Below are positions 3,097 to 47,960 of a DNA stretch of 64,000 bases, one piece after another. Numbering within the stretch: position 1 is the first letter of the stretch; each line of letters starts with the position of its first letter. Both the position numbers and the translations under genes were made by a program. The DNA is taken from NCBI GenBank assembly GCA_024680815.1, contig JAILBQ010000077.1, forward strand, positions 1-64,000. Reading direction: 5' to 3'. The notes under the pieces are model-generated. The model ran no database searches, was not told the DNA's origin, and saw only the letters and a list, made by a program, of their open reading frames with translations. The DNA is from Lachnospiraceae bacterium. Its GTDB lineage: Bacteria > Bacillota > Clostridia > Lachnospirales > Lachnospiraceae.

Positions 3097-4149
3097 TCAG
3101 TTCGCCTTGGCGGCGCGGGCAGCGCGGATCTTTTCGGTCAGATCCGGCAGGATCTTGTTGAGGTCGCCGACAACGCCGTAGTCCGCCACGTCAAAGATCG
3201 GAGCATCCTCATCCTTGTTGATGGCAACGATAATATCGCTCTCCTCCATGCCGGCCACGTGCTGGATCGCGCCGGAAATACCGATGGCGAAATAGACCTG
3301 GGGACGGACCGTCTTTCCGGTCTGGCCGACCTGCATGTCCTTGGGCTTCCATCCCGCGTCAACAACGGCACGGGAGCAGCTCACGGTACCGCCGATGGCG
3401 TCCGCAAGATCCTCAAGAAGCTTGAAATTTTCGGGGGAGCCGACTCCGCGGCCGCCGGAAACAAGGATCTTCGCGTCCATGATATCCGCAACTCCGGAAA
3501 CCTCTTTAACGATCTCCTGAATCTCGACATATTTGTTGTCCGGTTTGAAGCCGGGGTTGTACTCTACTATCTCGGCCTTCGCGCCCTTAACCGGGTCGGC
3601 CTTCTGCATAACGCCGGGACGAACCGTGGCCATCTGCGGACGGTGGTTCGGGCAGGCGATGGTAGCGATGGTGTTGCCGCCGAAAGCGGGACGGGTCATA
3701 AGGAGCTGCTTATGCTTTGTCTCCTTGCCCTCCACAGGCTCAAGCGGGAAATCGCCGATATCGAGCTGCGTGCAGTCCGCGGTAAGTCCGGTGTGGATAC
3801 GGGCGGAAACACGGGGGCCCAGGTCACGGCCGATGGCGGTTGCGCCCACCAGCATGATCTCCGGCTTGTACTCGTTGATAACGGAAGCAAGAGCGTGCGC
3901 ATAGGGCTCGGTGCGGTATTCCTTGAGCTCGGGGTCGTCAACGAGGATAACCCTGTCAGCGCCGTATTCCGCCAGCTCGTCCGCGAGGCCCTTTACACCG
4001 GAGCCGATAAGGACGGCCGTAACTTCCTTTGTGTCAAGATCTTTTGCCAGGTCTTTGCCCTTTCCCAGAAGCTCCAGCGCGATGGAGCTGAGCTTACCGT
4101 CCACCTGCTGCGCAAAGACCGCTACGCCTTTATATTCTTCTAATCCCAT
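3097..4149 (-). CDS. etfA: Electron transfer flavoprotein subunit alpha
   Basis: 350 aa; C-terminal [51 protein letters not shown]-binding motifs. Confidence 0.97.
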
Positions 4150-4163
4150 GGTATTCTCCTTTA

Positions 4164-4949
4164 TTAAATAACATGCTTTTCGGACAGCTTGTTGATGATG
4201 TACTCCACTCCCTCCTGGGGTGAGTCAGGGGTCACCTTTTCTCCGGCGCCCTTACGCACCTTGTCGGAGGCCTTTGCGATCTGGGTCGGAGAACCGGCCA
4301 GACCCATGTTTTCATCCGCAAGCTCCTTAAGATCCGCTCTTCCCCAGACCGTGGTTTCTTTATCGAAAGCATCGAAAATGCCGCCGGGAGTCATGTAACG
4401 GGGTTCGTTGAGCTCCTGCAGGGCAGTGATCAGGCAGGGCATCTTTACCTTCAGCACGTGATACCGGTCATCATACTGCCTGCGTACGATAACATAGTCC
4501 CCGTCGATCTTTATATCCGCCGCGTAGGAAATAACCGGGATATCAAGATGCTCGGAAATCTGGGGGCCGACCTGGGCCGTGTCGCCGTCGATGGCCTGGC
4601 GGCCGGTGATGATGAGGTCGTAATCCAGATTCTTAATGGCTGCCGCCAGGGTGGAGGAGGTGGCCCAGGTGTCCGCACCGCCAAGCACGCGGTCCGTTAC
4701 CAGGATTCCTCTGTCCGCTCCCATGGCCATGGCCTCGCGGAGCACCGCGTCAGCCTTGGGAAGACCCATGGTAAGCACCGTGACCTCGGCGCCGTACTGA
4801 TCCTTAAGTCTCAGCGCCGCTTCCAGGCCCGATTTGTCATCAGGATTCATAATCGTGAGCATAGCCGCTCTGTCAAGGGTTCCGTCGGGCTTGAACTTGA
4901 CGCCGCCTTTTGTGTCCGGAACCTGTTTTACACATACTACGATTTTCAT
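4164..4949 (-). CDS. etfB: Electron transfer flavoprotein subunit beta
   Basis: 261 aa; MKIVVCVKQVPDT, ALRLKDQYGAEVTVLTMG, GRQAIDGDTAQVGPQ. Confidence 0.97.
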   Translation of the reverse strand: MKIVVCVKQVPDTKGGVKFKPDGTLDRAAMLTIMNPDDKSGLEAALRLKDQYGAEVTVLTMGLPKADAVLREAMAMGADRGILVTDRVLGGADTWATSSTLAAAIKNLDYDLIITGRQAIDGDTAQVGPQISEHLDIPVISYAADIKIDGDYVIVRRQYDDRYHVLKVKMPCLITALQELNEPRYMTPGGIFDAFDKETTVWGRADLKELADENMGLAGSPTQIAKASDKVRKGAGEKVTPDSPQEGVEYIINKLSEKHVI

Positions 4950-4995
4950 ATGTTAACTCCTTTTTAAGCTTCTTAATCTGTTGTTCCGAACGGAC

Positions 4996-6150
4996 TCAGC
5001 GCAGAAGCGCCCCGGAAATGACCATTCTCTGAACTTCGCTGGTTCCCTCATAGATTTCGGTGATCTTCGCGTCACGCATCATACGCTCCACCTCGTACTC
5101 ACGGATGTAGCCGTAGCCGCCGAAGAGCTGTACGCATTTTGTAGTGACTTCCATGGCGGTCTCCGCCGCGAAAAGCTTGGCCTGGGCGGCTTCGAAGCCG
5201 TAATCCTTCTGGGTGGCCTTGGCCATGGCGGCCTTGTAGACCAAAAGCTTCGCCGCCTCTACCTGGGTGGCCATGTTCGCCAGCTGGAACTGGGTGTTCT
5301 GCTGCTGGGCAATGCTTCTGCCGAACTGCTTTCTTTCCTTTGTATATTCAATCGTGCGCTCCAGCGCTCCCTCGGCGATACCGAGAGCCTGGGCCGCGAT
5401 ACCGATTCTGCCGCCGTCCAGGGTGTGCATGGCGATCGGGAAGCCCTTGCCTTCCGCACCCAGGAGGTTGTCCTTCGGGATCCTGCAGTCCTGGAAAATA
5501 AGCTCATAGGTTGAGGAGCCGCGGATACCCATCTTGTTTTCCTTTGTACCGAAGGTGAAGCCCGGAGTATCCTTTTCAACGATGAAAGCGGAGAATTTCT
5601 TCTTTTTTCTGCCCTTGGGATCGATGTCCACCTGGGTTACGGCGATGACGATATAGACATCGGCTTCCTTACCGTTGGTAATGAAGCACTTGGAGCCGTT
5701 AAGCACCCATTCGTCCCCGTCGAGCACGGCCTTGGTCTGGGCACCCTGGGCGTCTGTTCCGGCGCCGGGCTCGGTCAAAGCGAAAGCGCCGAGCTTCTCA
5801 CCCTTTGCCAAGGGAACAAGATATTTCTGCTTCTGCTCCTCCGTGCCGAACTGGAGAATGGGATCGCAGCAGAGAGAAGAGTGGGCGGAAACGATAACCC
5901 CGGTGGTGCCGCAGACCTTGGAGAGCTCCTCCACACAGGTCACATAGGTTAAGGGATCGCACCCCTGTCCGCCGTACTCCTTGGGCACCGCGATGCCCAT
6001 GAAGCCGTATTTCTGCATTTTTTCAACTGTATCCCGCGGGAAGACCTCGGTCTCGTCCACCTCGATCGCCTTGGGCTTAACTTCCTTTTCGGCGAAATCC
6101 TTAAAAAGATCCACCGCCATCTGGTGTTTTGCGTCTAATTGAAAGTCCAT
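4996..6150 (-). CDS. bcd: Butyryl-CoA / short-chain acyl-CoA dehydrogenase
   Basis: 384 aa; FALTEPGAGTDAQG, YTKERKQFG, QLFGGYGYIREYEVERMMRDAKITEIYEGTSEVQRMVI. Confidence 0.96.
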   Translation of the reverse strand: MDFQLDAKHQMAVDLFKDFAEKEVKPKAIEVDETEVFPRDTVEKMQKYGFMGIAVPKEYGGQGCDPLTYVTCVEELSKVCGTTGVIVSAHSSLCCDPILQFGTEEQKQKYLVPLAKGEKLGAFALTEPGAGTDAQGAQTKAVLDGDEWVLNGSKCFITNGKEADVYIVIAVTQVDIDPKGRKKKKFSAFIVEKDTPGFTFGTKENKMGIRGSSTYELIFQDCRIPKDNLLGAEGKGFPIAMHTLDGGRIGIAAQALGIAEGALERTIEYTKERKQFGRSIAQQQNTQFQLANMATQVEAAKLLVYKAAMAKATQKDYGFEAAQAKLFAAETAMEVTTKCVQLFGGYGYIREYEVERMMRDAKITEIYEGTSEVQRMVISGALLR

Positions 6151-6172
6151 GTTATTCCTCCTAAATCTTCGT

Positions 6173-7048
6173 TTACTTCGCGTCCACAGGAACCTTGCCG
6201 CCGTCCGCGTAATTATAGAAGCCGATTCCCGTCTTCACGCCGAGATGCTTTCCGCGAACCATCTTCTTAAGAAGGGGTGCGGGACGATATTTGGAATCGC
6301 CGGTCTCCTTGTATATGACCTCCATGATGGCCAGGCAGATGTCCAGTCCGATGAAATCTCCCAGCTCCAGGGGACCCATGGGATGGTTGCAGCCAAGCTT
6401 CATGGCGTCGTCCACGCCCTTGATGTCCGCGATGCCCTCGGAATATACGAAAATACCTTCGTTGATCATCGGAACAAGAATCCTGTTCGCCACAAAGCCC
6501 GGAGCCTCGTTGACCTGAACGGGGGTCTTGCCGAGCTTGACGGAAATTTCCTTAACCCTGTCCACGACCTCGGCGGGGGTGTTGATTCCGGCGATGACCT
6601 CCACCAGCTTCATTACAGGAGCCGGGTTAAAGAAGTGCATGCCTACCACAGGCTTGGAAAGCCCCGAGCCGATCTCGGTGATGGAAAGAGAGGAGGTGTT
6701 GGAGGCGTAGATGCAGTTCTCGTTTTTCACGATGTTGTCCTGCAGATCCTTGAAGCACTCCTTCTTTATATCCATAACCTCGAGGGCCGCTTCCACAACC
6801 AGATCCACGTCCGTACACTGGGAATTAAGTCCCGGCTGGATCTTGGCAGTGATGGCGTCGGCGTCAGCCTGCTCCATTTTGCCCTTTGCCACCCTCTTGT
6901 CAAGGCCCTTGGCGATCTTCTGGAAGCCGCCGTCTGCGAACTCCTGCTTGATGTCGCAAAGATAAACCTTTTCCACCTCAGCGTTCTGTGCGAACGCCTG
7001 CGCGATTCCCGAACCCATGGTTCCCGCGCCGATTACTGCTACCTTCAT
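6173..7048 (-). CDS. hbd: 3-hydroxybutyryl-CoA dehydrogenase
   Basis: 291 aa; [37 protein letters not shown]. Confidence 0.97.
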
Positions 7049-7086
7049 ATCTTCATGCTTCCTTTCCGCGGTTTATACCGCAATTG

Positions 7087-7881
7087 TTATTCATTCTTAA
7101 AATCAACAATCTTAACCTTCGCGGGATCGTCCTTCTTGCGGAGGAAGTTTGCCATTCCCTCCTTCTGATCCCAGCTTTCGAAGCACCCTCCGAAGAGCTT
7201 CTCTTCTATAACAAGAGCGTCGTCCATGCCGGCCTCCAGCCCGTCGTTGATGGCCTTCTTGCAGGCGCGTACGGCAATCGGAGCGTTCTTTGCGATGGTT
7301 CCCGCCAGCTTTTCGGCCTCGGCCATAAGGTCTGAAAGAGGATAGACCGCGTTTACGAGACCGATGCGGAGAGCCTCGTCAGCCTTGATATTCCTGGCCG
7401 TATAGATCATCTGCTTTGCCATGCCGGGTCCGACTATACGGGCAAGCCTCTGGGTTCCGCCGAAGCCGGGGGTTATGCCGAGGCCCACCTCGGGCTGACC
7501 GAAGATGGCGCTGTCCGCGGCGATACGAATGTCGCAGCTCATGGAAAGCTCGCAGCCGCCGCCCAGAGCAAAGCCGTTAATCGCGGCGATGACCGGAACC
7601 GGCAGGGTCTCGATCTTGCGGAAGATATCGTTCCCCTTCTTTCCGAAGGCCTCGCCCTCCGCCTTTGAAAGAGAGCTCATCTCGCCGATGTCCGCCCCGG
7701 CCACAAAGGATTTCTCACCGGCGCCGGTAATTACAAGGGCTCTTGTTTCGTTAACATCGATGGAATCGATGGCCGCCTCCAGCTCGTCCAGCACGGCGGA
7801 ATTAAGGGCATTAAGCGCCTCCGGCCGGTTGATGGTGATAACGGCGATTTTTTCTTTTTTCTCCAGATTGATAAATGCCAT
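7087..7881 (-). CDS. crt: Enoyl-CoA hydratase / crotonase
   Basis: 264 aa; [37 protein letters not shown]. Confidence 0.96.
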
Positions 7882-7922
7882 GTTCCCTCCTTATATTTTT
7901 CGACCTTCCGGTCTCCTTTTTC

Positions 7923-9104
7923 TTATCCCTCTCTCTTTATCACGGTGGCGCAGCCCATGCCGCCGCCGATGCAGAGGGTCGCAAGCCCCGTCTTTTTATC
8001 AAGCCTCTCCATGTTGTGGATCAGGGTTACGAGAATCCTGCAGCCAGAAGCTCCCACCGGGTGTCCCAGAGCTATGGCGCCGCCGGCCACGTTAAGCTTC
8101 TCCGGATCAAAGCCCAGCTCCTTGCCCACGGCCACCGACTGGGCCGCGAAAGCCTCGTTGGCTTCATAGAGGTCGAAGTCTTCGATCTTCATATTGAGCT
8201 TCGCCATGACCTTCTTCGTGGCCGCCACGGGTCCGATTCCCATAATCGAGGGATCGACGCCTGCCAGGGCGCCGCCGCAGAAGACCGCCTGTACGTTCGC
8301 TCCCAGCTCTTTCGCCTTTTCCTCTGTCATAACGACGATGGCCGCCGCTCCGTCGTTGATGCCCGAGGCGTTGCCCGCGGTCACAAAGCCGCCCTCGTTG
8401 ATCGGACGGAGCTTTGCGAGAGCTTCCATGGAGGAATTGGGCCTGGGGCCCTCGTCCTTGTCAAAGGATATTGTCTCCTTCTTTTTCTTAACCTCAACAG
8501 GAAGGATTTCCTTGTCGAACCAGCCGTTTTCCTGGGCCTTCTGGGCCTTCTGCTGGCTCTTTAAGGAAAACTCGTCCAGCTCCTCGCGGGTAAGCTTCCA
8601 CTGCTCGGCGATATTGTCGGCCGTTTTAATCATATGATAATCATTGAAGGCATCCCACAGAGCGTCCTTTATCATCGTATCGATGAGGGTGTTGTTACCC
8701 ATGCGGTATCCGAAACGGGCCTTCTCCAGAGCAAAGGGCGCCATGGACATGTTTTCCATACCGCCGGCCACAACTATTTCCGCGTCTCCCGCCTCGATCA
8801 TCTGAGCCGCCATATTGACGGCGTTAAGGCCGGAACCGCAGACCACGTTCACTGTCACGGCCGGAGTCTCGATCGGAATCCCCGCACCGATTGACGCCTG
8901 TCTGGCCACATTCTGTCCCTGTCCCGCCTGGATTACGCAGCCCATATACACATGCTCAACCTTGTCCGCCGGAACATTCGCACGCTTAAGAGCCTCCTTT
9001 ATCACAAGGGAGCCAAGCGTGGCTGCAGGGGTGGTGGAAAGTCCGCCGCCCATGGTGCCGATAGCGGTGCGGCAGGCACCTGCAAGAACAATTTTCTTTG
9101 TCAT
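7923..9104 (-). CDS. thl: Acetyl-CoA C-acetyltransferase (thiolase)
   Basis: 393 aa; [46 protein letters not shown]. Confidence 0.97.
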
Positions 9105-9153
9105 TGAAATCCTCCTTTATATATGATATTTCTTTAAATTTATATGAAAGTGA

Positions 9154-9303
9154 GGATTGCTCCGTTGCTGCGCAACTCTCGCAATCCCGGATGTAAATTC
9201 GCAAATCGCCCCGCTCCGCGTGGCTTTTTTGCTCATTTACATCAGGTTTTCAAATGTCTGCGCAAAAATTCGAGCAAGCTCGATTTTTGGCAGCCATTGA
9301 AAA
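9154..9303. repeat. Three consecutive long hairpins between hpf and thl
   Basis: ggattgc/gcaatcc (9154-9187, inner gttgc/gcaac); gatgtaaat/atttacatc (9190-9243); ttttcaa/ttgaaaa (9247-9303) containing ctgc..aaaaat.cgag/ctcg.attttt..gcag. Confidence 0.8.
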
Positions 9304-9314
9304 CACTTTCAATG

Positions 9315-9842
9315 CTAAAGCTCCGGCTCTATGAGGCCGTAGGTGTTGCCCTTACGCTTGTACACCACGTTGACCTCATCGGTCTCGGCATTGCGGAACA
9401 CATAGAAATTGTGGCCCAGAAGCTCCATCTGGACGCAGGCATCCTCAGGATACATGGGCTTGAAGCCGAAGCGCTTGGTGCGGACGATCTCGATATCGTC
9501 CCCGTCGGAGAAGTCCCGCTCGATATATTCCCGTTTCAGCTCTCCCGAGCCCTGGGCCTTGTCCACAATCTTCGTCTTATACTTCTTAAGCTGCCGCTCG
9601 ATAATCTCCTCCACCAGATCGATGGAAACATACATGTCGTTACTGACCTGCTCCGAGCGGATTATGCTGCCCTTCACGGGGATGGTGACCTCGATCTTCT
9701 GACGGTCCTTTTCCACGCTCAACGTGACGCGGACCTCGGTATCCGGAGTGAAGTACCTCTCCAGCTTTCCGATTTTTTCTTCCACGGCCGCGCGCAGGCC
9801 CCCGGTAACGTCCATATTCTTTCCAGTAATGATAAATTTCAT
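9315..9842 (-). CDS. hpf: Ribosome hibernation-promoting factor, long form (HPF/RaiA family)
   Basis: 175 aa; N-terminal MKFIITGKNMDVT...KLERYF and C-terminal IVRTKRFGFKPMYPEDACVQMELLGHNFYVFRNAETDEVNVVYKRKGNTYGLIEP. Confidence 0.96.
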   Translation of the reverse strand: MKFIITGKNMDVTGGLRAAVEEKIGKLERYFTPDTEVRVTLSVEKDRQKIEVTIPVKGSIIRSEQVSNDMYVSIDLVEEIIERQLKKYKTKIVDKAQGSGELKREYIERDFSDGDDIEIVRTKRFGFKPMYPEDACVQMELLGHNFYVFRNAETDEVNVVYKRKGNTYGLIEPEL

Positions 9843-10054
9843 GAGGAATACCCCCTTAAACGTATGATGAGAGGATTATAACATATTTCATTTCATGATT
9901 AAAGCGGGAAAAGTGATTACCGGATTGTTCTTTATTTCCTTGTCAAGGGACTATTTTTTCTTTTTTCCGGTTGCAAGTGTTATTTATGAGAGTTGAACAA
10001 AACCTCTGTTCCCGAAAGTTTCCATAAAACGTAAGGGTATCATACGCTATTTTT

Positions 10055-10125
10055 TGTGGATAAAGTGGATAACTTAGTGCATAACTCGATTTTATCCCGC
10101 TTTTTTCCCCCGTTTTTGTGGATAA
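10055..10125 (+). promoter_or_regulatory. Cluster of DnaA-box-like 9-mers
   Basis: Perfect TGTGGATAA at 10055-10063 and 10117-10125; AGTGGATAA at 10064-10072; AGTGCATAA at 10076-10084, all same orientation. Confidence 0.65.
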
Positions 10126-10152
10126 CTCCCCGACTGTGATGTTAAGAAAAGA

Positions 10153-12378
10153 TTACGGATTATTTTTCACGGCACCGGATTTTTGTGCAAGTTTTTTTCG
10201 CCCCCGAACAATTACGGTAAGAGTCAAAAAGGCGGCGGTAAGAAGTGAAAGCGCCAGAGACGCGTAATTAAACCAGGGCTGGGTAAAGGAAAGGTGAACC
10301 CGGGCATTCATGGCCGGAGGAAGGAAAAGCCGGAGTGTGCCTGCGGGGCTTTCGGAAAGGAAAAGCCCGTTTCCGTTTCCGTCCGAGGCGCGATACCCGT
10401 AATAATAAAGAAGGGGAAGATCCACAAAGCAGTCTTCGGGAGAGGCGGAATAAATCAGGTCAACCGTCGTACCCTTCTTTTTGTATTCCGTAAGCTCCAC
10501 TCCGGGAGAAGGGAGGGGAGCCTGCTTACCTTTATAGTCCTCCATAGCCGTAAAGTTCGAAGGCATATAATCCACGTTGTGTGACCAGGCCGTGTTTCCG
10601 GTGAGGGGTTCGATGGTGCTCCTCCGGTTTTCAAAGAGATCGAGCTGGAGGGAGGCCGTAATCAAACTGATTATCACAACGACGGCCGCCGCGGCAAAGC
10701 GATAGCCTTTAAGAGCGCCCAGCCGGCAGAGAGAAACCGGAAGGGTTATGCAAAGAAGGCTCACCGCTATCTCAAAGACCCTCCAGGGATGTTCAAGCAG
10801 GTAGAGGTGGTAGTAGAGCCCGGTCAGCTTTTCCAGAGTTGCCCAGGGAAAGAGTTCGGTGGAGAAATATACGCAGAAGAGCTCGAGGGCAAAGGAAAGA
10901 GACACAAATTTCCTTAAAGCCTCCTTCTTTTTTTCTCCGAGAAGGTATGCCCCGGTAAAAAGCAGGCCAAGAAGGCCGGATAGTCCGAGAACCGGCACCA
11001 TGGTTCGCGGAAGCAGCGTGTATTCGTTGTCGGAATATAAATAAGGAAGAATCCTGAACACCTCCGAAAGGGAAAGCGCGAGCTCCTTCGGATTGAAGCG
11101 GCGGATAGTCGCGTCCAGCTGCAGGTTCTGGCTCCGGTAATAGAAGAAAGGCACGAAGAAAGCCAGATTAAGAAGAAGGGTCGCAAAAGCCGCCTTAAGG
11201 AGGGAAAGGATCCTTGTTTTTTTAACGAGCTCCGGCAGGAAGGCAAGGCAGAAAACAAGGCAGATCGCGCCGCCGTAAAGGGCGGACAGTATGTGGGATT
11301 CAACCATGCCGCTCATACCAATCACAAGGGGAAGATACGCCTCTTCGTCCCCGATAAGGATATTATAGAGACCCGCAAGCAGCAGGGGGAAGAATAAAAA
11401 GGCCAGGCATTCTCCCAGTGTGGAGCGGTAATACACGTCGATCAGGCGGAAAGGGGAGAGACAGAAAAGAATCCCGGCGAAAAGAGCGAAGGAGGAATTT
11501 TTAAGTACGGTTTTTACCGCGAAATAAGCCGCCGCAAAGGACGCGGCGTTTATTACAACATAGAAAAAGCGGTATGCCCCGGAGGCGGAGACGTTAATAA
11601 GTCTCAGAAACGCGGGGATGTAGAGAAAAAGGTTCGGGTAGAGCGCACCCAGATATCCGTGTCCGTAGACGGCCTCAGGGTAGATCACCGCGGGAAACTG
11701 GCCGTCCAGAACGGCGTCCGCTATGCCCTCTATCCGCATCATGTGAAATACGGTGTCATGCCCGGCAATCAGAGCTTCCGAAAAGAGCGGGTAAGAAGCG
11801 AAAATAATGCAGCCCGCGGCGCAAAGTGTCCTTAAGGTAAATATTCCCCGGCGGGAGAGGGCGGGAACAAGAAAGACCGCAAGGATCAGAAGAAGGCCCA
11901 GGAAAAGGTGATCCCGGAACAAAAGCCTGTCGGCCTTAAGGGATATATTCTTGAAGATTATTTCCCCGGAGGAGGGACAGGAAAGGCTTATCCGGAAATC
12001 ATTTGCCCGGCGGGACAGGGAAAAGGTGAATTCGTCTTTAATCCGAGCGGCCTTAAGAGGTATTTCCCCGAGAATCGTTTCCCCGTCCATGAGACGCAGA
12101 CTTCCGTCCTCCGGAAATTCGTATTCGACAGAAGCGCTGTAATTCCCCCTGGGCAGGTCAAAGCTTTTTGAGAGCGCAAAAATTCCGTCAGGGGTTTTAT
12201 CAGCCCCTGACGGAATCGTTATTACACCTTCACCGGTATCGTATTTTTCAGCCTTTACGCTGAAAGCATCGAAAGGAAGATAAAGCTCGTCATCCGCCTT
12301 CAGGCAAAGCAGCGTAAACGCCGCAATCACCAGAGCGAGCAGGAAGGAAAGCCAATAATTTTTAACGAGCTCCTTCAA
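10153..12378 (-). CDS. YfhO-like multi-pass membrane protein (putative GT-C glycosyltransferase), paralogue of 17654-19846
   Basis: 741 aa polytopic; AGHDTVFHMMRIEGIADAVLDGQFPAVIYPEAVYGHGYLGALYPNLFLYIPAFLRL. Confidence 0.75.
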   Translation of the reverse strand: MKELVKNYWLSFLLALVIAAFTLLCLKADDELYLPFDAFSVKAEKYDTGEGVITIPSGADKTPDGIFALSKSFDLPRGNYSASVEYEFPEDGSLRLMDGETILGEIPLKAARIKDEFTFSLSRRANDFRISLSCPSSGEIIFKNISLKADRLLFRDHLFLGLLLILAVFLVPALSRRGIFTLRTLCAAGCIIFASYPLFSEALIAGHDTVFHMMRIEGIADAVLDGQFPAVIYPEAVYGHGYLGALYPNLFLYIPAFLRLINVSASGAYRFFYVVINAASFAAAYFAVKTVLKNSSFALFAGILFCLSPFRLIDVYYRSTLGECLAFLFFPLLLAGLYNILIGDEEAYLPLVIGMSGMVESHILSALYGGAICLVFCLAFLPELVKKTRILSLLKAAFATLLLNLAFFVPFFYYRSQNLQLDATIRRFNPKELALSLSEVFRILPYLYSDNEYTLLPRTMVPVLGLSGLLGLLFTGAYLLGEKKKEALRKFVSLSFALELFCVYFSTELFPWATLEKLTGLYYHLYLLEHPWRVFEIAVSLLCITLPVSLCRLGALKGYRFAAAAVVVIISLITASLQLDLFENRRSTIEPLTGNTAWSHNVDYMPSNFTAMEDYKGKQAPLPSPGVELTEYKKKGTTVDLIYSASPEDCFVDLPLLYYYGYRASDGNGNGLFLSESPAGTLRLFLPPAMNARVHLSFTQPWFNYASLALSLLTAAFLTLTVIVRGRKKLAQKSGAVKNNP

Positions 12379-12386
12379 CGCAGTAC

Positions 12387-13952
12387 TCAGAATATCCTTC
12401 GCACAGCCAGGACGTTACGGTAATTCGCGTTGGAAACCTTAATACCGGTACGGGCAGTTGAAGCGTGAACAATATTTCCGTTTCCGATATAGATTCCCAC
12501 GTGACCGGAGTAGCAGACGATGTCGCCGGCCTGTGCATTTGCAAGTCCGCCCGGAACCGCGCTTCCCACGGCCCTGTCACCGCCGGAGCTGTGAGGCAGG
12601 GAGATTCCGAAGTTTCTGTATACACTCATAACAAAGCCGGAGCAGTCCGCGCCGTTTGTGAGGCTCGTGCCGCCGTATACATACGGATTACCCACAAACT
12701 GAAGAGCATAGTTGGCAACCGATGCGCCTGTGCCGCTGCCGGAAGCGGAATATCCGCCGCCACCGCCGCCTGAAGAGCCGCCGTTCTTCTTTCCGGAAGA
12801 ATTCTTCTTCTGGTTCTTCTTCTGGGCAGCCTCCGCAGCGCGTCTTGCAGCCTCGCGCTCCTCGGCCTCTTTCTTAAGTCTGGCCTCTTCCTCCTGACGG
12901 GACTCGGCTCTTACAAAGTCGGTATAAATCCTGACAAACTCACCGCTGACATAGCCGTCACCTTCTTCGATGGAGACCTTTACCCAGCCGTCGCTTGTTT
13001 CCTCGGAAACCGTCAGCTCGTCGTCCATCGGAACCATACCGATGACCTCGGCCTCAAGAGAAGGCTCATGGCGAACATAAAGGGTGGTTGTGATGACCCT
13101 GGCCATCCTGGTACCCACCTCGGGCGCCAGTGCCACCGCCTCATCCCCGCGGACCACATATTCCTTTTTCACATAACCCACTGTGTTGCCGGACTTGATC
13201 TTTACCCAGTCTCCCGCGTCCTCCAGCTCATCGCCGACGGACTTGTTGTAGAGCTTACCGACTATCTCGGACTCCTCGGTGGGGAGCTCCCGGACATTCA
13301 CGTAGTCGTTGACCCGGGCAATAACCAGATTTGTGAAATCCTCCACGTCATAGTGCTCTTTGGCTGTCACGGCGTCCACAAGATTCATGCTTCCGTCGCT
13401 GTCGCCCGTATCGATAGTGGATTCCGCCCCGGCATTTATGGAGGCAATATCATCAACGGAAACCGTGGATGAGGGCTTTTCCTCTTCCTCCCCGTCGGTT
13501 ATGGAAGACCCTGCGCCGGCGGAGATTACATCCATCTCCATATCCGTTCTCTCCTGGGGATCCACAACAATGGCATCGTCAAAATCCGCCTGGGGAGCCT
13601 CAGGTTCAGGCTCCTGCCCTTCCTCCTCGGAAGCATATACTACAGTTGAAAATACGGACTGGTGGCCCTCACCGGGCGCATCCTTTTCTTTGGACTCCTC
13701 AGCGGAGGAGGAAGCAGCCGCGGCAACCTCCATGATATATTTAACCCCGGCGGTTCCGGTCTTTTTCACCTTGTCCGCCCGGATGGCGGTAACCGACCGG
13801 CCTTCATTAAGCGCACGGGCTATACCCGCCACAGGGAGCTGGAAGGAGTCGGGATCCGACGCCGCGCTCAGCTCATTGGCGGGAATAAGATTGATAAAAA
13901 CGGCCCAGACAAGAACAATGGCCGTAAATTTCGCGATAGAGATCTTCTTCAT
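12387..13952 (-). CDS. Secreted SH3b-domain NlpC/P60 peptidoglycan hydrolase
   Basis: 521 aa; signal sequence, SH3b-type YVNVRELPTEESEIVGKLY and LYVRHEPSLEAEVIG, C-terminal GNPYVYGGTSLTNGADCSGFVMSVYRNFGISLPHSS...GDIVCYSGHVGIYIGNGNIVHAS. Confidence 0.95.
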   Translation of the reverse strand: MKKISIAKFTAIVLVWAVFINLIPANELSAASDPDSFQLPVAGIARALNEGRSVTAIRADKVKKTGTAGVKYIMEVAAAASSSAEESKEKDAPGEGHQSVFSTVVYASEEEGQEPEPEAPQADFDDAIVVDPQERTDMEMDVISAGAGSSITDGEEEEKPSSTVSVDDIASINAGAESTIDTGDSDGSMNLVDAVTAKEHYDVEDFTNLVIARVNDYVNVRELPTEESEIVGKLYNKSVGDELEDAGDWVKIKSGNTVGYVKKEYVVRGDEAVALAPEVGTRMARVITTTLYVRHEPSLEAEVIGMVPMDDELTVSEETSDGWVKVSIEEGDGYVSGEFVRIYTDFVRAESRQEEEARLKKEAEEREAARRAAEAAQKKNQKKNSSGKKNGGSSGGGGGGYSASGSGTGASVANYALQFVGNPYVYGGTSLTNGADCSGFVMSVYRNFGISLPHSSGGDRAVGSAVPGGLANAQAGDIVCYSGHVGIYIGNGNIVHASTARTGIKVSNANYRNVLAVRRIF

Positions 13953-16607: not shown

Positions 16608-17657
16608 CTACCCAAACCGCTGTATCAGCCTGTTAAAGACCGCGTTTCTTATACGAATCAGCCGGAACAGAGAGCCTATCCTTCCTTTTTCCACGCAGGA
16701 AAGCAGTAACCGCTCCCACAGGCCCCCTGCCTCCTCCGCCTCCGAGGCAACGGCCGAGCGGTAAGGCTCCCGGAGAGTGAGCTTAAGATACTCTTTTTCC
16801 CGCTCCTCTTCCGGCAGCGGGTTCTTCGGATGCACGAAATAGAGCGAGCAGTATTCTCCGGTAAGTATTTTCCAGTACTTTCTCTTTAACGAGCGGCGGA
16901 AGATCTCTCCCTTGCCGTACTTATCGACAAATTCCCGGTACGCCCCGCAGGTTTTTTCCATTATATCCACGATTTCCGGGTTATAGCGGTGGCTTACCGA
17001 GACCTCGGATATCCTGTAGTGGTAGAGGGGCAGGGGAAGATAGGCAAAGCTTTCGCAGTGCTCCAGGAGATTTAAGTTAAAAACCGTATCCTGACCCTTT
17101 TTAAGCCCGGGAGTGTAGCGCACGGAATTCTCTTCGATGCAGGAGCGGCGTATCAGCTTCCCCCAGGGAGCCCCCACCTCGACGCCGCCGAGCCGCCTGT
17201 CCCCTCCGAGAATCGACAGCTCCAGGGCTTCCCTTTCAAAGAGACCCGGGTCGGGGTTTTTTAATACCCTCTTAAGCTCCCGGTTCGTATAGTTCGTGGA
17301 ATAACCGAAAAAAAGCATGTCCACCGCCTTTTCCTCCATGGCGGACAAGGCCTTCTCACAGCAGTCCCTTTCAAGGTAGTCGTCGGCGTCCAGAAAGAGG
17401 ATATAATTGCCCTCCGCCGCATTTAACCCAGCGTTTCTCGCAACGGAGGTGCCGCCGTTCTTCTGGTGGATCACCTTAAGACGGGCATCCCCGGCCGCGT
17501 ACCTGTCAAGGATCGCCGGGACGGGATCGGAGGAGCCGTCGTCCACGGCTATTATCCGGAGCCTGCGCTCTGTCTGGTTTATCACGCTCTCAAGACAGGC
17601 GGAGAGGTATTCCGGCTTTGTATTATATACCGGAATTATGACGGAAATATGACTCAT
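16608..17657 (-). CDS. Glycosyltransferase family 2
   Basis: 349 aa; ISVIIPVYNTKPEYLSACLESVINQT, GTSVARNAGLNAAEGNYILFLDADDYL. Confidence 0.93.
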   Translation of the reverse strand: MSHISVIIPVYNTKPEYLSACLESVINQTERRLRIIAVDDGSSDPVPAILDRYAAGDARLKVIHQKNGGTSVARNAGLNAAEGNYILFLDADDYLERDCCEKALSAMEEKAVDMLFFGYSTNYTNRELKRVLKNPDPGLFEREALELSILGGDRRLGGVEVGAPWGKLIRRSCIEENSVRYTPGLKKGQDTVFNLNLLEHCESFAYLPLPLYHYRISEVSVSHRYNPEIVDIMEKTCGAYREFVDKYGKGEIFRRSLKRKYWKILTGEYCSLYFVHPKNPLPEEEREKEYLKLTLREPYRSAVASEAEEAGGLWERLLLSCVEKGRIGSLFRLIRIRNAVFNRLIQRFG

Positions 17658-19846
17658 CCCTTTTCTCCTCTTTTCCCCAATAAAAGGTAAAGAAGAAAGG
17701 CCGCGGAAGAAAGGAGCGAGATTATAAATGAAACAGGAAAAGAAACAGGCGGGGAATATAAAAGCTCCGCTTCGTATGAGCCCGCCGGCAGGGAAAGACG
17801 GAGCATGCCGCCTTCTCCCTTTGTGCCTGTGAGCGCCCCGCCGTTCTCCCCCTTAACCCGGGCAGAATAAACGGGATAAAAGGTTTTGGGCAAAACCACA
17901 TAGCCCTCTTTCGTACTGTCCACCTTAAAGGAGGCATAAAGGCCCAGGTCCAGGTAGTCCTCAACCTTCACGTCGCTTTCCGGCCCGTCCGGCAGGGCAT
18001 CCTTATCAAAGCCCACCGGAGTATAGTCGGTAAAATAGTGATTATCGACACCGGGATAAAAGGCATAGGCGATATGTTCCGTACCGGTTAAAAACGAATC
18101 CATAAGGAAGATCCCGGTGCACAGGGAAACTATCCCAAGAGCAAGAGAGAGCTTTCTGGCGTATGCCGGAAAGCCTTCTCCGGAGAAAAGGGCGCTTATG
18201 CCGGCAAAAAGGAGGCAGACCTCTCCGGGCTGGAGAAAGCGCAGCGGAAACTGGAATACCCTGATCACCCGCTCCGCCCGGGCAAATTTCAGAAGTGTTC
18301 CCCAGGGGAAGAGAGAGATTGACATAACAACAAGAACCACCCCTGTCCCGGTCAGAAATGCCAGGAATTTCCAGGCTTCGTCCCGCTTTTTTTCCGTGAG
18401 AAGCCTGAAAAGCGCCAGTCCCAGGCAGATAAGCCCCGCCAGCGCCAGGGAAAGATTGTCCTCTCCCGCGATGCCTTTGGCAAGGACGTTTGAGGAATGG
18501 TCGCCGAGCCCCGCGAAGCTCATGAAAAGCTGGGCGGGGATGACCGCGTTTTCCGGGAAATTCGCCGCGGCAAACTTGCCCGTGATGTCTATATCCGCCC
18601 CGTGGTAGTAAAGGAAGGGCACGATAAACCAGAGATTGAGGAAAAGTGTCCAGAGTCCGGATATTATAAAAGGCACAAGGCGGGAGACGGAAAAGAAAAG
18701 GACGAGGGCCAGAAAAGCCAGTCCCGCTGCCATAACCGCGCTGAGCACGTGGGACTCGATAACCCCGGTAAGCCCCAGGGTAAGAAGCCACCAGCGTTTT
18801 CTGTCTCCCAGAAAAACCTCGTAAAGCCCCGCAATCACCAGGGGAAGAAAGACCATGGCCAGAGCCTCTCCCAGCGCGTCCCGGAAATACAGGGCGGAAA
18901 GCCGGTAGGGAAGACAGGCGTAGAGCACCATCGCAAGAGCCGCCCCCTTACGGTTCGCTCCGAGGGAGCGGGCACAGACATAAGCGCTTCCCATGCTTCC
19001 GAGATTGATTAGGAAAAGGAGGGCATGGTACGAAAAGGGAACCGAGGCCCCGAGGAGCCTCAGAAACGCCGGGATATAGAGAAAGAGATCCGGATAGAGG
19101 CAGTCTGTTAAACCCCTGCCGTTAAAAGCTCCGGTAAAAAGGCGCACCGGCACCTGGAGATTGATAAGCTCGTTTTTTATACCTTCAATCCTGGAGATAT
19201 GGTAGGTTATGTCTCCGCCGTAATGGATATAGCCCGTAAACAGGGGATAGTTTATCAGAACCGCAAAACCGGCAAGGGCGAAGCAGAAGAACTTCTCCTC
19301 CGGTCTCTTTTCCCGGAAGGAAGCCCCTGTAAAGGCCCGGGTAAATATGAGCACCAGGAGAATAAGGAACAGGGCAAGCAGAAGGGTATCTGTATAAAAA
19401 AAGCCGCGGGAGGCGTAGAGAACGGCGTGTTTTAAGCTGACCGTGCCGCCCCCGGGACAAAGAAACTCCACGGAAAGACTGTAGAGCTCGGTTTCACCGG
19501 AAAAATCAAGGCGGCTTTCCGTTTCGCCGGCGGGAAGAGTAAACTCGTAAAGTAGCTTTCCTCCGTTAAGAATCCGCACAAGGCTGTCCGTATCCTGTTC
19601 ATGGTCGATCAAAAGCCGGTATGACCCGGCCGGAACATGGAGAAGGGGAATACGGGCTAAAATCTCCCCTTCGGCAAAATCCGAAGAGGTCGTGAGGGTT
19701 ATGACCCCGTCCGAAAGGTCGGCGCCCTCCGGAATATCCGTAAAGTCATAGAGGCCGTAATAGAGCTCGTCGTCAGTCTGAAATTTCAGGAAGGCCGTCA
19801 GGGCGATAAGGAAAATCAGCACTGAAGGCAGGATATATTTCTTCAT
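17654..19846 (-). CDS. YfhO-like multi-pass membrane protein (putative GT-C)
   Basis: 730 aa; YGGDITYHISRIEGIKNELINLQVPVRLFTGAFNGRGLTDCLYPDLFLYIPAFLRLLG, same architecture as 10153-12378. Confidence 0.75.
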   Translation of the reverse strand: MKKYILPSVLIFLIALTAFLKFQTDDELYYGLYDFTDIPEGADLSDGVITLTTSSDFAEGEILARIPLLHVPAGSYRLLIDHEQDTDSLVRILNGGKLLYEFTLPAGETESRLDFSGETELYSLSVEFLCPGGGTVSLKHAVLYASRGFFYTDTLLLALFLILLVLIFTRAFTGASFREKRPEEKFFCFALAGFAVLINYPLFTGYIHYGGDITYHISRIEGIKNELINLQVPVRLFTGAFNGRGLTDCLYPDLFLYIPAFLRLLGASVPFSYHALLFLINLGSMGSAYVCARSLGANRKGAALAMVLYACLPYRLSALYFRDALGEALAMVFLPLVIAGLYEVFLGDRKRWWLLTLGLTGVIESHVLSAVMAAGLAFLALVLFFSVSRLVPFIISGLWTLFLNLWFIVPFLYYHGADIDITGKFAAANFPENAVIPAQLFMSFAGLGDHSSNVLAKGIAGEDNLSLALAGLICLGLALFRLLTEKKRDEAWKFLAFLTGTGVVLVVMSISLFPWGTLLKFARAERVIRVFQFPLRFLQPGEVCLLFAGISALFSGEGFPAYARKLSLALGIVSLCTGIFLMDSFLTGTEHIAYAFYPGVDNHYFTDYTPVGFDKDALPDGPESDVKVEDYLDLGLYASFKVDSTKEGYVVLPKTFYPVYSARVKGENGGALTGTKGEGGMLRLSLPAGSYEAELLYSPPVSFPVSFIISLLSSAAFLLYLLLGKRGEKG

Positions 19847-47853: not shown

Positions 47854-47960
47854 CTCTCATTGTTCGATTACTCGCTCAAGGTTGGCACCTTCCGGAACCA
47901 TAGTCCGGGGGTTGTCGTGGCTTCACAGATCCTTTGCATCTCCACCACTCGTAATAAGAG
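47854..47960 (-). promoter_or_regulatory. SAM-I riboswitch (S-box) aptamer
   Basis: Minus strand CUCUUAUUACGAGUGGUGGAGAUGCAAAGGAUCUGUGAAGCCACGACAACC...GGUUCCGGAAGGUGCCAACCUUGAGCGAGUAAUCGAACAAUGAGAG; canonical S-box core and P1 pairing. Confidence 0.95.

Follow-up and report, generated by a model that had tools for sequence, protein, structure and literature searches.

A cluster of four DnaA boxes upstream of the ribosome hibernation gene hpf in a Lachnospiraceae genome belongs, as the sequence comparisons described here strongly support, to a conserved, low-copy DnaA-box element located outside oriC. The window (the whole stretch of DNA that was analysed, 64,000 nucleotides of contig JAILBQ010000077.1) carries one copy of this array. 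The sequence, geometry, conservation, neighbourhood and position of the element were observed directly. On balance, the array is probably a clostridial counterpart of the B. subtilis DnaA-box clusters (DBCs), one that would restrain DnaA and may have had an ancestral role in hpf control.

The DnaA boxes in the window

Four DnaA boxes lie within 71 bp (10055-10125), all on the minus strand, which is the sense strand of hpf. The forward-strand letters are TGTGGATAA at 10055-10063, AGTGGATAA at 10064-10072, AGTGCATAA at 10076-10084 and TGTGGATAA at 10117-10125, corresponding to TTATCCACA-type boxes on the minus strand. Read in the hpf sense, the order is TTATCCACA, TTATGCACT, TTATCCACT and TTATCCACA, with start-to-start steps of 41, 12 and 9 bp; two of the boxes have a final T in place of A. 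They occupy a 310-bp non-coding gap (9843-10152) between hpf, which starts at 9842, and the stop of an open reading frame for a 741-residue membrane protein. The gap had no Rfam match, so no RNA element was recognised there. The original prediction, two perfect and two further boxes in one orientation within this gap, was accurate at every position. The features of the region, all on the minus strand, are:

9315-9842, minus: hpf, long-form ribosome hibernation promoting factor, 175 aa (TIGR00741, 2e-26; PF02482, PF16321)
9875-9880, minus: probable hpf promoter -10, a TG-extended TATAAT, read directly from the sequence
9996-10011, minus: conserved half-palindrome GAACAGAGGTTTTGTT, of the GAACNNNNGTTTTGTG type, 74 bp from the triplet start; recurs in relatives
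10055-10063, minus: triplet box 3, TTATCCACA, perfect, with no gap to box 2
10064-10072, minus: triplet box 2, TTATCCACT
10076-10084, minus: triplet box 1, TTATGCACT; relatives retain its 12-bp step to box 2
10117-10125, minus: distal DnaA box, TTATCCACA, perfect; a counterpart recurs in the window's own family
10153-12378, minus: 741-aa membrane protein, family unassigned, an insertion that separates the cluster from its ancestral NlpC neighbour
12387-13952, minus: SH3/NlpC-P60 peptidoglycan hydrolase, the usual upstream neighbour of the array in the window's own family

The pattern TTATSCACW occurred 100 times in the 2.86-Mb genome, compared with 44 occurrences of the reversed-pattern control, and elsewhere in the genome this search never found more than two boxes close together. 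Away from dnaA, two further perfect TTATCCACA boxes lie close together in opposite orientations (G000, contig C11:704-738). The chance expectation for same-strand four-box clusters within 71 bp, a Poisson estimate for the whole genome, was ~2e-8. This value and the uniqueness of the window cluster in 2.86 Mb, established by the genome-wide count that accompanied the original prediction as a proposed check, rule out a chance cluster.

Conservation of the array

Boxes were absent upstream of hpf in all 23 sampled relatives from the genus, whose hpf proteins are 74-83% identical to that of the window. Four-box rows did occur upstream of hpf in L028 (41/12/9 bp) and L029 (42/12/9 bp), which represent two other families of the order and whose gaps are unrelated to the window gap apart from the box row. 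Because the geometry was the same in these families, the search by geometry was widened to the order. The triplet was defined as box, 3 bp, box, box (pattern TTATNNACWNNNTTATNCACWTTATCCACA, at most two mismatches) and the pattern read backwards served as the control. Of the 392 order genomes, 195 carried the triplet (control, 4). A class-wide sample gave 53 carriers among 118 genomes, representing 45 of the 94 genera (control, 1), and in both sets most carriers had one copy. A scan of named genomes also located it in Paenibacillus, Listeria, Selenomonas and others. The dnaA-dnaN gap of two other Clostridia (L101 and L114) contains this triplet as well, indicating that it is a true origin-type DnaA motif.

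Within the window's genus, the triplet matched 13 of 48 genomes, the match in G021 being probably due to chance, and the lack of the pattern in the other 35 indicates that the array is dispensable in those members. Absence from close relatives, which the original prediction had named, together with a lack of DnaA binding, as counting against it, was thus the case for the nearest genus members sampled first and not in the wider view of the order and class. The reading that the boxes are unconserved, and so trivial, was overturned by the geometry of L028 and L029 and by the wider search. Since the search pattern itself fixes the triplet geometry, independent support comes only from features outside the pattern.

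Chromosomal position was measured in 12 closed genomes from the order. The distance between dnaA and the array was 2.0-20.5% of chromosome length, against a maximum of 50%, with five of the lengths rounded, and in 11 of the 12 the array was co-directional with the replication fork. Arrays not linked to hpf (G293, G353, G374 and G403) were in the same distance range. These distances were measured in relatives, the window's own genome being a fragmented assembly, and origin-proximal placement in 12 mutually related genomes is suggestive.

The fourth box and a conserved half-palindrome

The fourth box, which is outside the search pattern, recurs upstream of the triplet, at 40-42 bp in the window's own family and at 31 bp in another. 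Downstream, and likewise outside the search pattern, 44 of the 197 loci carry AAC-N4-GTTTTGT. Counted from the triplet start, its position is in every case +45/46 or between +72 and +75, and the upstream stretch of the 197 loci, which served as a control, had none. Several other families have the full palindrome CACAAAACNNNNGTTTTGTG at this place, and the half-palindrome motif accompanies arrays both with and without hpf. The window copy has zero mismatches to the triplet pattern, its fourth box at 41 bp and its half-palindrome at +74. Inspection by eye of loci L258-L271, from the window's own genus, showed that another block is conserved between the boxes and the half-palindrome, reading TTATGGAAACT or TTATGGTAACT, with TCATAAATAAC following.

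The half-palindrome is probably occupied by a sequence-specific partner protein. An ordinary regulon operator was considered and rejected: when 13 genomes were searched with at most two mismatches, perfect palindromes were confined to the array in five genomes, with scattered sites having one or two mismatches elsewhere. The lexA promoters of the family carry sites of the GAAC/GAAT-N4 type (for example GAACATTAGTTTTG in G062); in the motif at the array, by comparison, AAAC is frequent, as is an extended GTTTTGTG half. LexA is a candidate for the protein that binds the half-palindrome.

Relation of the array to hpf

Directly downstream of the array, and oriented like it, an hpf gene was found at 58 of 92 loci of the order, 14 of 28 of the class and 3 of 12 of the genus. 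In 9 further order loci and 6 further class loci the downstream gene was glnH, which in several families opens a transporter operon ahead of hpf, so that the array and hpf are 3-16 kb apart. In loci L064, L065, L066 and L067, what separates the array from hpf is an ABC transporter of the glutamine type, glnH-glnP-glnQ. These arrangements suggest that array-glnHPQ-hpf-secA was ancestral. None of the ~100 hpf-linked arrays in Clostridia was inverted; three inverted arrays, L108 (Chengkuizengella), L120 and L125 (both Paenibacillus), all came from the named-genome scan.

The genes upstream vary: trxB-NlpC in the window's own family, a macro-domain protein in another, a hydrogenase and a fucosidase. 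An NlpC gene preceded the array in 29 loci. The 741-aa membrane protein had no Pfam or NCBIfam match; a homologue with 43% identity also precedes the array in G014. Of the two large membrane proteins in this glycosylation-type gene region, the second (730 aa, 17654-19846, minus strand) likewise had no Pfam match.

Linkage to hpf was found in most loci of the order and class and was never inverted in Clostridia, yet the two are separable in both directions. Half of the arrays in the window's own family (23 of 46) had no hpf within 1 kb and stood instead beside NlpC/trxB, galK or other genes, which argues that the array is not merely a part of the hpf promoter. Conversely, among the 392 genomes of the order hpf was found in 358 and the array in 195. 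As each occurs without the other, the linkage is better regarded as an ancient preference than as strict dependence, and the case for a strict hpf regulator is correspondingly weakened. A DnaA-controlled switch for ribosome hibernation, as suggested in the original prediction, is possible, in that linkage and orientation have been kept across the class, though not as an obligatory pairing.

The strongest competitor, though a good deal less probable than a DnaA-restraining cluster, is that DnaA acts here mainly as a transcription factor that activates or represses hpf or a glnHPQ-type operon, coupling hibernation to the state of replication. The consistent placement of hpf or glnH downstream, without a clostridial inversion, and the persistence of hpf while the upstream genes change are what such a role would leave behind. 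Against it, most genus members and many genomes across the order have hpf and no array, and arrays have outlasted their separation from hpf. The boxes stand anywhere from 138 to 443 bp from the start of hpf, with no helical phasing, and the probable core promoter in the window is at a distance from them, its putative -10, which a simple promoter scan missed, being ~175 bp from the nearest box. A more elaborate proposal, that a clostridial complex of DnaA and a second, possibly LexA-like, protein on the fixed-phase palindrome senses the replication state, restrains initiation and sets hpf expression, is doubtful.

Comparison with known systems

The DBCs of B. subtilis, notably gcp-ydiF, resemble the array in being short intergenic clusters of TTATCCACA boxes that are outside oriC and few per genome, and are origin-proximal, as the array is in the 12 closed relatives; the array too has several boxes outside oriC (four in 71 bp, with oriC on another contig). 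According to a 2017 review, removal of six clusters resulted in early initiation, which was partly relieved by re-inserting one (PMC5295017). The ydiF place is strongly bound by DnaA in B. subtilis (PMC4447404). In Paenibacillaceae, the triplet is found downstream of a YdiF-type ABC-F gene, with tsaD (gcp) alongside in some cases, and so shares its location with this strong site; the comparison is one of location alone. The systems differ in that the B. subtilis DBCs are at gcp-ydiF, sda, ywlC and ywcI and the window array is upstream of hpf, and in that B. subtilis has six clusters whereas the array is usually a single copy with a conserved half-palindrome at a fixed offset.

The ydiF site in Paenibacillus, the origin-proximal position in closed relatives and the separation from hpf seen in part of the family make a titration-type role the best fit. 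Counting against it, the array is dispensable in the genus members that lack it, class-wide linkage and a fixed orientation to hpf are unexpected for a pure titration site, and four boxes are few for effective titration.

It is unlikely, to a slightly greater degree than the combined DnaA and LexA-like complex, that the array is a site like datA or DARS, which would switch the nucleotide state of DnaA, through ATP hydrolysis or ADP release, in concert with a partner on the half-palindrome. In E. coli, the three-box core of DARS promotes ADP release, the datA IHF site promotes DnaA-ATP hydrolysis, and the boxes of the DARS cores are not all in one direction. DARS1 and DARS2 are, like the array, small non-coding cores of DnaA boxes with accessory sites, from which the head-to-tail array boxes differ in orientation. 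The general design, boxes plus a second site, is similar and the parts are different: datA, an intergenic group of DnaA boxes, has five over a longer stretch with an IHF site between them, and the array has four in one direction within 71 bp with a different palindrome downstream; their positions are not homologous. In datA and in DARS, DARS2 included, IHF or Fis sites accompany the boxes at a conserved spacing (PMC4585315); this parallel and the confinement of the perfect palindrome to the array in five genomes speak for such a site. The one-directional boxes speak against it, as does the 2017 review, which knew of no regulator of DnaA nucleotide state in B. subtilis (PMC5295017). The original prediction of a datA/DARS-like titration or reactivation site survives as a probable titration-type site outside oriC, for which the B. 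subtilis clusters are the closer model.

A decaying relic, with an ancestral role that is being lost in the genus and no longer matters in this species, is very improbable: only 12-13 of 48 genus genomes keep the array and two window boxes end in T, but the window copy keeps the full geometry without a mismatch to the triplet pattern, and also the distal box and the half-palindrome. A second or alternative chromosomal origin, for which only the triplets between dnaA and dnaN in L101 and L114 could be cited, is scarcely credible and was rejected, since the organism has an ordinary oriC on another contig (C130: rpmH/rnpA upstream of dnaA, dnaN downstream, about seven boxes of its own), the adjacency to dnaA, dnaN or rpmH that marks an oriC is missing at the window cluster, and no replication genes or origin signs were found among its neighbouring genes. 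That the cluster is unlikely to be the main origin had been predicted from the absence of dnaA, dnaN and rpmH nearby.

Proposed mechanism

The DnaA of this organism has the usual DNA-binding signature, DHTTVIHG. For the clostridial counterpart of the B. subtilis clusters, we infer that DnaA would bind at the tight boxes and then extend along the head-to-tail row to give a compact nucleoprotein complex, probably with the second protein on the half-palindrome at its fixed spacing. The array, being rare in the genome and origin-proximal in closed relatives, would be duplicated early in each replication round and would hold DnaA off oriC, delaying the next initiation. This delay is modelled on the collective action of the B. 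subtilis clusters outside oriC. Given the usual place of the array upstream of hpf, DnaA occupancy may secondarily modulate hpf.

Other features

In L286 (G217), L273 (G361) and L279 (G069), and similarly in further relatives, a tandem DnaA-box doublet, TTATCCACATTATCCACA, occupies the gap that separates murC from a DnaD-like gene and precedes the helicase-loader region, with gene names assigned by eye from translation; DnaA control of the helicase-loading operon is possible. In the window, a Clostridiales-1 RNA (RF01699, 105.8 bits, 9145-9311, minus strand) lies directly downstream of hpf, before the thiolase gene; among 20 hpf loci tested, only the window and G013 had RF01699 at this place. 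A complete butyrate-type operon, thl-crt-hbd-bcd-etfB-etfA (3097-9104, minus strand), follows downstream of hpf, and thl follows hpf in several relatives too. The window also has a SAM riboswitch (RF00162, 56 bits, 47854-47960, minus strand) and a mobile-element gene for a PD-(D/E)XK nuclease family transposase (PF12784, 1227-2057, minus strand).

Significance

The control of replication initiation in Clostridia has been little studied, and none of the papers searched mentioned DnaA and DnaA boxes together with ribosome hibernation, or DnaA boxes together with Lachnospiraceae. The array, present in many gut Lachnospiraceae, is a concrete site for testing DnaA titration outside Bacillus and E. 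coli, and, given its lasting place upstream of hpf, experiments could directly address whether replication and ribosome hibernation are linked. An effect on hpf would be a more surprising outcome than the holding of DnaA; a complex that did both would, if real, represent a so far undescribed coupling between DNA replication and ribosome shutdown.
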